Shown: one piece after another, positions 34,727 to 52,089 of the stretch
Numbering within the stretch: the first letter of the stretch is position 1
Layout of the letters: each line of letters begins with the position of its first letter
NCBI GenBank assembly: GCA_026413765.1
Contig: JAOAKI010000013.1
Coordinates: 1-52,089, forward strand
Direction: 5' to 3'
DNA: 52,089 nt
Source of the DNA: Microcaldota archaeon
Lineage (GTDB): Archaea > Micrarchaeota > Micrarchaeia > Anstonellales > Anstonellaceae
Translations under genes and position numbers: made by a program
Notes under the pieces: generated by a model
What the model saw: only the letters and a program-made list of their open reading frames with translations
Database searches by the model: none
What the model was told of the DNA's origin: nothing

Positions 34727-34843
34727 TGTCAGCAGCAATGCGCCTTCCCGCGATTCATCGCAGTACAAGCCGCATCGTGAGAGGGCTTAACTTCCGAGTT
34801 CGGAATGGGTTCGGGTGTTTCCCCTCTCCTATGGCCGCTGACA
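34727..34843 (-). rRNA. rrf: 5S ribosomal RNA
   Basis: About 117 nt on the minus strand. Recognised by the universally conserved core CCCGAACCCATTCCGAACTC followed by GGAAGTTAAGC. The ends TGTCAGC and GCTGACA pair perfectly as helix I, which sets the boundaries. No 16S, 23S or tRNA gene is adjacent, so this 5S is an unlinked gene. A TTTTTTAA element at 34864-34871 (read on the minus strand) is centred about 25 bp before the 5' end and is a plausible own promoter. Confidence 0.95.
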
Positions 34844-51522: not shown

Positions 51523-51530
51523 TTTATAAA
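51523..51530 (+). promoter_or_regulatory. TATA box for the S-layer gene
   Basis: TTTATAAA preceded by a run of A residues. With the 26-bp spacing used elsewhere in the window, transcription should begin near 51552, just before a hairpin-forming sequence. An earlier TTTATAAAC at about 51490-51498 is a second candidate. Confidence 0.65.
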
Positions 51531-51551: not shown

Positions 51552-51692
51552 AGGACCTCTATGAGAGGCACTAGCCTGTGCCTTAAGGGGAGTGTATAGG
51601 GCAAAAAATGAATGTCGTCCAAAAATGCACCAAAAAAGGTGCAGTGAAGTGTTTATGATTTGCCCTAAAAGGACGACATTTGAGGTGAATAG
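51552..51692 (+). promoter_or_regulatory. Structured 5' leader of the S-layer gene (possible pseudoknot/switch)
   Basis: About 140 nt without a plausible CDS. Visible pairings: CCTCT 51556-51560 with AGAGG 51564-51568; GGCAC 51567-51571 with GTGCC 51578-51582; a 9-bp perfect pair 51597-51605 with 51659-51667; a 10-bp perfect pair 51611-51620 with 51671-51680; and TGCACC 51626-51631 with GGTGCA 51638-51643 (loop of six A). The 9- and 10-bp pairs are interleaved (A, B, A', B'), so they form a pseudoknot or exclude each other. The 10-bp partner ends 1 nt before the GAGGTG ribosome binding site (51682-51687) of the ATG at 51693. Ligand or factor unknown. Confidence 0.6.
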
Positions 51693-52089
51693 ATGAAAGG
51701 AATAAACATAAAGAAGATAGCGGCCTTCGCAGGCGCAGCTGTCCTCTTTGGCGCAAGCCTTGCAGTTGCCGACGTGGTTTATGGCAATGTGCAGCTTGTT
51801 GACCAATCTGGCCAGCCGACTGTGAAGATCGTTGTCGGAAGCAAAGCTGCAATCACCGACGGTGTGGCAGCAGCCAACATCGCGGCAAAGATTGCAAACG
51901 AGGCATACAAGAGCTCGACACTGACTGCTGGCCTTTCTGGGCAGGCAACCTGCAGCGTTGGCACCACAAACGCAACAGGCTCTTGCTCAGTAGTTGAGAC
52001 CAGCAAGAAAGTGGTCCTGGAAGTTGTCGTTCCAGGAGAAGTCGCAGGAACCCACACCTTCAAGACCCTGATAACTGACACAATTGACA
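51693..52089 (+). CDS. S-layer protein, N-terminal part (runs off window)
   Basis: 132 codons readable, no stop in window. The N-terminus (MKGINIKKIAAFAGAAVLFGASLAVADVVYG) is a signal peptide with basic start, hydrophobic core and AxA-like site. Then QPTVKIVVGSKAAITDGVAAANIAAKIANEAY closely follows the opening of methanococcal and DPANN S-layer proteins (VVGSxAA…DxVAAANIAAKI). Beta-rich sequence follows, with an NAT glycosylation sequon. GAGGTG 5 nt before the ATG, a long structured leader and a strong TATA box suggest high, controlled expression. The glycan genes at 1-22 kb could decorate it. Confidence 0.9.
   Translation, partial: MKGINIKKIAAFAGAAVLFGASLAVADVVYGNVQLVDQSGQPTVKIVVGSKAAITDGVAAANIAAKIANEAYKSSTLTAGLSGQATCSVGTTNATGSCSVVETSKKVVLEVVVPGEVAGTHTFKTLITDTID

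Follow-up and report, generated by a model that had tools for sequence, protein, structure and literature searches.

The DNA upstream of an S-layer gene at the end of an archaeal contig carries two interleaved inverted repeats, and this raises the question of whether they fold as RNA and what such a fold could do for the gene. The window (the whole stretch of DNA that was analysed, 52 089 nt) is contig C5 of an 840-kb, Micrarchaeota-like genome. An analysis of its letters, hereafter the original prediction, had read the two repeats as a pseudoknot or a translational switch in the leader of a gene for a surface protein. The identity of this gene is borne out by a PF05124 S_layer_C domain (E 2.8e-9) within its first 132 codons. 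Only the 5' part of the gene is present (51693–52089, forward strand, start codon at 51693), since the contig ends at 52089 inside it; intact homologues of the protein are mostly about 860–1040 aa long. Contigs of relatives likewise end in or near their S-layer gene (G042:C34, G063:C15 and G056:C31). S-layer proteins are very abundant, and the product of the gene at 51693 is probably abundant as well.

Arms and promoter of the leader

All features of the leader lie on the forward strand. A TATA-like box (TTTATAAA) is located at 51523–51530, and from the archaeal TATA-to-start spacing of ~25 nt the transcript is predicted to begin at about 51553. In the 11 leaders tabulated for this feature the nearest TTTAWA box in range stands 154–202 nt before the start codon. 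Downstream of the box, stem A is formed by a 5' arm at 51597–51605 (TAGGGCAAA) and a 3' arm at 51659–51667 (TTTGCCCTA), and stem B by a 5' arm at 51611–51620 (AATGTCGTCC) and a 3' arm at 51671–51680 (GGACGACATT); all four arms are assigned from sequence together with the covariation described below. These are the perfect, interleaved 9-bp and 10-bp pairs that had been claimed, at exactly the positions given for them, and G51610–U51681 may add an eleventh pair to stem B. The 5' arms are separated by linker L1 (51606–51610; 1–47 nt, median 8, across 46 leaders), the 3' arms by linker L3 (AAA, 51668–51670; 1–18 nt, median 4, across the same leaders), and loop L2 (51621–51658) spans 38 nt here and 14–61 nt in the 46 leaders. 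As stated originally, the ribosome binding site GAGGTG (51682–51687) begins 1 nt beyond the second pair, outside all arms.

Chance was addressed by shuffling. None of 5000 dinucleotide shuffles of 51552–51692 contained interleaved perfect arms summing to at least 19 bp (shuffle maximum 17), which agrees with the expectation that arms of 9 + 10 bp are unlikely to arise by accident. Pseudoknot-aware folding, a check that had been proposed, was run on the last 150 nt of the leader with G-U pairs allowed, and the best pseudoknot of the window copy (−36.2 kcal/mol) was more stable than those of all 60 shuffles (mean −22.6, minimum −29.8 kcal/mol).

Covariation and distribution of the pseudoknot

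A search for the N-terminus of the S-layer protein succeeded in 50 of 59 related genomes and, when an alignment was used, in 221 of 301 genomes of the phylum; the 39 named S-layer relatives are listed as Candidatus Micrarchaeota, 'ainarchaeum' or unclassified archaea. From these relatives 89 upstream regions were collected, 67 of them distinct. An alignment-free two-helix search of the last 150 nt gave a pseudoknot that beats all 60 shuffles in 34/67 leaders, and a search limited in loop length recognised one in 52/67. The latter figure comprises 46 curated leaders and six read by eye (L009, L021, L028, L029, L055 and L066), in which the automatic A arm was ambiguous; stem A of L066 is weak. 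No pseudoknot was seen in the remaining 15 (L025, L031, L035, L040, L041, L043–L046, L048, L049, L051, L072, L079 and L090). The recurrent layout starts with a 5' arm of A containing GGGC or GGGGCC, followed by an A-rich linker, a 5' arm of B ending in YCGCC or similar, a loop with the motif GNUAAYNNUUNU, the 3' arm of A, a short linker, the 3' arm of B and GAGGTG. A further 40 leaders, a few of which duplicate those already collected, extend the range to f12 and f13, two families within the same class; for several of these 40 (L144, L145, L147, L151 and L155) presence was judged by eye. By reading, the pseudoknot occurs in about 13 families (f1, f2, f4, f6, f7, f9 and f11–f17), and it is absent from the S-layer leaders read in families f18 to f21.

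The original prediction had proposed to look for compensatory changes in orthologous S-layer leaders. We did so in an alignment (A3) of 41 rows, namely the 46 curated leaders minus L002, L003, L013, L071 and L056, in which the stems were aligned by register and the loops trimmed or N-padded to equal length. Both-sided changes are present in 15 of the 16 base pairs, with 153 compensatory cells and scattered G-U pairs in the stems, and a separate count on 42 rows agrees with this result. Of 656 cells 91.9% pair, a figure that is flattering because the rows were picked for a visible knot, which also guided their alignment. More weight therefore attaches to the slid-register control, in which 32–45% of the cells pair, and to the held-out leaders described below, than to the raw percentages. 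In 500 shuffles no alignment reached any covariation measure of the real one. Interleaved helices with compensatory changes are what defines an H-type pseudoknot, and since the stems covary, the leader folds as RNA.

For searching, a model (R1) was built in which stem A alone is encoded as base pairs. In six held-out S-layer leaders outside its training set stem B forms in 6/6 and a clean stem A in 5/6; the exception, G083, has a mismatch in stem A, and there the automatic search picked other helices and the knot was read by eye. Among the 301 genomes of the phylum R1 gave 44 matches at E ≤ 0.01 in 43 genomes, and 42 of the 44 directly precede the start of an S-layer gene. Neither of the two exceptions (G097:C8, E 0.003, and G121:C4, E 0.004) forms both stems, nor does a weaker match (G028:C104, E 0.038). 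The S-layer gene of G097 itself has the knot (L141). One match (G095) belongs to another order of the class and again precedes the S-layer gene. At a loose cut-off (E ≤ 1, 39 genomes) further weak matches appear, as expected by chance. In its own genome the window copy is the setting of a single R1 match at E ≤ 0.05, and no second copy of the pseudoknot was found there. The element is thus found before one gene only, as autoregulatory leaders are. With covariation, six held-out leaders and a near-exclusive linkage to the S-layer gene all pointing the same way, we are nearly certain that a conserved pseudoknot is present in this mRNA leader, as one half of the original prediction had it.

Loop motif, ribosome site and 5' hairpin

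In most leaders the motif GNUAAYNNUUNU follows directly after the 5' arm of B and is unpaired. Its third and fourth positions (U3 and A4) are invariant in 43/43 leaders and U9 in 42/43 (L002, L003 and L013 excluded). The window copy departs from this pattern: a hairpin, TGCACC-AAAAAA-GGTGCA (51626–51643, arms 51626–51631/51638–51643), has been inserted into L2 and the 5' half of the motif is lost, while a GUUUAU resembling its 3' half is retained. The inner 6-bp hairpin had thus been described correctly, yet as a part of the conserved element it does not hold up; it is a local insertion in a conserved loop, particular to the window copy, and we rejected it as a functional part. Other inserts occupy L2 in L003, L023, L047, L068, L145, L154 and L155, and in L003 they likewise replace the motif. 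The stems of the window copy and of L003 are nevertheless perfect, and the outer pair of stem A is U-A in the window but C-G in most congeners. Because these two copies keep perfect stems and the outer pair has been swapped, the stems seem to be selected even without the loop motif, and this retention is our main reason for favouring a structural role rather than a ligand pocket, as an argument rather than a test. Two other ideas for this region were discarded. Pairing of the loop motif with the start-codon region is hardly stronger in native combinations than in swapped ones (mean −5.53 vs −5.31 kcal/mol, permutation share 0.199), and the frame of a leader peptide starting at the AUG in CUAUGAGAGG is lost in L003 and L012 (by eye).

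The second half of the original prediction, a translational switch that controls access of the ribosome, fared worse. The Shine-Dalgarno core AGGUG lies outside every arm in 46/46 leaders, at a distance from stem B that ranges from 1 to 51 nt (median 7), and in none of the 46 is the ribosome site part of, or paired by, the 3' arm as in translational pseudoknot riboswitches. In the genus of the window the site is just 1 nt from stem B, so that an effect on initiation is possible there.

The original prediction had also placed two hairpins at the 5' end. Both can be drawn, one of them as CCTC/GAGG, but the relatives favour a single kink-turn-like hairpin at 51556–51590 instead, composed of a C-stem CCUC, a bulge UAU, GA, the hairpin GAGGCACUAGCCUGUGCCUU, AA and GGGG. 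A relaxed kink-turn pattern matches 16/22 leaders of families f1, f15 and f17 (1.03 expected from shuffles) and the string [CU][UGA]AUGA occurs in 19/22 (4.97 expected), figures that are no independent test because the pattern was drawn up after reading the same leaders. A strict search with GA on both strands, applied to 102 leaders (including a few repeats with shifted starts, e.g. L144 = L066 and L152 = L084), hit 9/62 pseudoknot leaders where 2.02 are expected, and the hit in L022 looks fortuitous. A canonical kink-turn combines a C-stem, a 3-nt bulge, tandem G-A pairs and a second stem; the window copy reads GA/AA, with AA in the place of the second GA, and the f7 leaders read are without the hairpin. 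On these patterns the 5' end of the leader in f1, f15 and f17 may form a kink-turn-like hairpin, a tentative assignment.

Candidate functions and related RNAs

We propose that the S-layer mRNA leader is a cis-acting RNA element in which a pseudoknot stands upstream of a free ribosome site. The folded leader would shield the mRNA of one strongly expressed gene from decay at its 5' end and would prevent pairing between leader and ribosome site, while the conserved loop might dock between the helices or be held by a bound factor. The variable distance to the ribosome site suits such a protective or insulating module better than a ribosome-access switch. This organism may well possess enzymes that degrade RNA from the 5' end, since two predicted beta-CASP ribonucleases, aCPSF1 and a second one, are encoded in its genome. 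In our judgement the most likely mechanism is a folded 5' module with two tasks, protection of the mRNA and keeping its ribosome site accessible, and we put it forward tentatively. Three observations stand against it: the invariant unpaired loop bases also resemble a ligand or protein site, many Micrarchaeota S-layer genes (the 15 distinct leaders and the families f18–f21 named above) lack the element, and in the genus of the window the ribosome site is close enough to stem B for initiation to be affected. A wider reading, which we consider possible but speculative, is that pseudoknot and GNUAAYNNUUNU make up a new archaeal class of regulatory RNA that senses an ion, a metabolite or S-layer precursor still awaiting export; such sensing might set the output of the Micrarchaeota cell coat, with help, in one group of families, from an L7Ae-type kink-turn where the mRNA begins.

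Feedback by a protein was suggested at the outset, and the protein bound to the leader could be either the S-layer precursor or an RNA-binding protein, for instance one of the L7Ae family seated on the kink-turn; binding would alter translation or stability as the protein accumulates. Association with just one gene is typical of autoregulatory leaders, the kink-turn-like hairpin recurs in f1, f15 and f17, and two L7Ae-family proteins are encoded in the genome of the window. In other archaea L7Ae regulates its own mRNA through a kink-turn in the leader (PMC6298567, PMC5539422). Yet the S-layer protein is exported, f7 carries the pseudoknot without a kink-turn in the leaders read, and the S-layer mRNA is not named in PMC5539422; we regard feedback as a minority possibility that is rather doubtful. 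A riboswitch for a small molecule or an ion, with GNUAAYNNUUNU as the ligand pocket and a knot that forms or tightens on binding, seems unlikely. Its attraction is that a compact pseudoknot contains unpaired bases that are invariant over 43 leaders, a feature shared with known pseudoknot riboswitches. It has to contend with a linkage to one gene per genome, none of them for synthesis or transport, with the loss of the motif in L002 and L003 while the stems are kept, with a ribosome site that belongs to no arm, and with the lack of a riboswitch match in Rfam.

The two helices could also be alternatives, A or B, that act as a switch. When only nested structures are allowed, stem A survives in the window copy and grows into the 5' arm of B, 7 nt of which pair into L2; stem B is invisible in this fold because the extension takes its 5' arm. 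Of the 46 leaders, 23 retain A and 16 retain B when folded in this way, counts that decide little between knot and switch because nested folding cannot show knots, and at least 4 nt of the 5' arm of B pair into L2 in just 11/46. The 3-nt junction between the two 3' arms had been suspected of straining their simultaneous formation. A coarse two-helix model, however, places both helices for the linker sets of 46/46 leaders and rejects, among the control linker sets tried, 0+0 nt for either helix size and 1+1 nt for helices of 9+10 bp, so that the junction appears to be no obstacle in principle; since the linkers enter as maximum distances and threading is left unchecked, the model says no more than that the two helices could coexist. 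As, moreover, neither state would cover the ribosome site, we think a switch between A and B improbable. Chance repeats or DNA operator sites without any RNA fold, for which one could cite an AT-rich leader just after a promoter, can practically be dismissed in view of the shuffles (0/5000), the both-sided changes in 15/16 pairs, the scattered G-U pairs, the conserved unpaired loop and a position downstream of the TATA-like box.

Searched against Rfam release 15, the window gave no match at the curated thresholds except for 5S rRNA elsewhere in it; the leader at E up to 5 gave two sub-threshold matches, which we took as chance, and 20 related loci gave one tRNA only. The 5S rRNA gene of the window is at 34727–34842 on the reverse strand, and no tRNA gene is present in the whole window. 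As no catalogued RNA family was matched, the leader appears to be an element of a novel type that serves control or protection. H-type pseudoknot riboswitches commonly include the ribosome site in their 3' arm. SAM-II, SAM-V and preQ1 riboswitches resemble the leader as small two-stem H-type knots near a ribosome site; they differ in that here this site is in no arm (46/46), L2 measures 14–61 nt and Rfam gives no match. HDV-like ribozymes hold an extra helix and a catalytic C between the two 3' arms, for which the linker found here is too short (1–18 nt, median 4) and without sequence common across families; we therefore rejected this class.

The nearest in theme is the SLH motif RNA, a bacterial riboswitch candidate of Synergistaceae and Firmicutes and likewise a structured leader, about 60% of whose members precede genes for proteins with S-layer homology domains (PMC6429828). 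It is bacterial and attached to a different protein family, and it was compared here by description alone. Leaders bound by L7Ae share with ours an archaeal mRNA leader and a kink-turn recognisable by a protein, but their kink-turn hides the ribosome site (PMC5539422, PMC6298567), whereas our kink-turn-like hairpin is far upstream of it; they differ also in that our gene is that of the S-layer and that conservation centres on a pseudoknot. The leaders of archaeal ribosomal-protein genes are similarly lineage-restricted and each tied to one gene or operon, and none of the motifs listed in the available part of PMC7247131 concerns an S-layer gene; S-layer, Micrarchaeota and pseudoknot are all unmentioned in that text, and S-layers are unmentioned in PMC2864571. 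Among the literature matches listed there was no report of an S-layer pseudoknot leader or of a Micrarchaeota/DPANN counterpart. What emerges is a well-supported leader RNA that precedes a gene for a cell-surface protein in uncultured archaea with small genomes. This RNA is open to probing in vitro without culture of the organism, and its conserved loop offers a target in the search for a partner.

Leaders without the pseudoknot show common features of their own in two families. Upstream of the start codon, the f18 leaders L156 and L157 have in common a hairpin region around GCCGAAAGGC. In the f19 leaders L158, L159 and L160 a common string of approximately GGAGYGRGGCUAAGCCAUAG lies between promoter and start codon and is perhaps a second conserved leader RNA.
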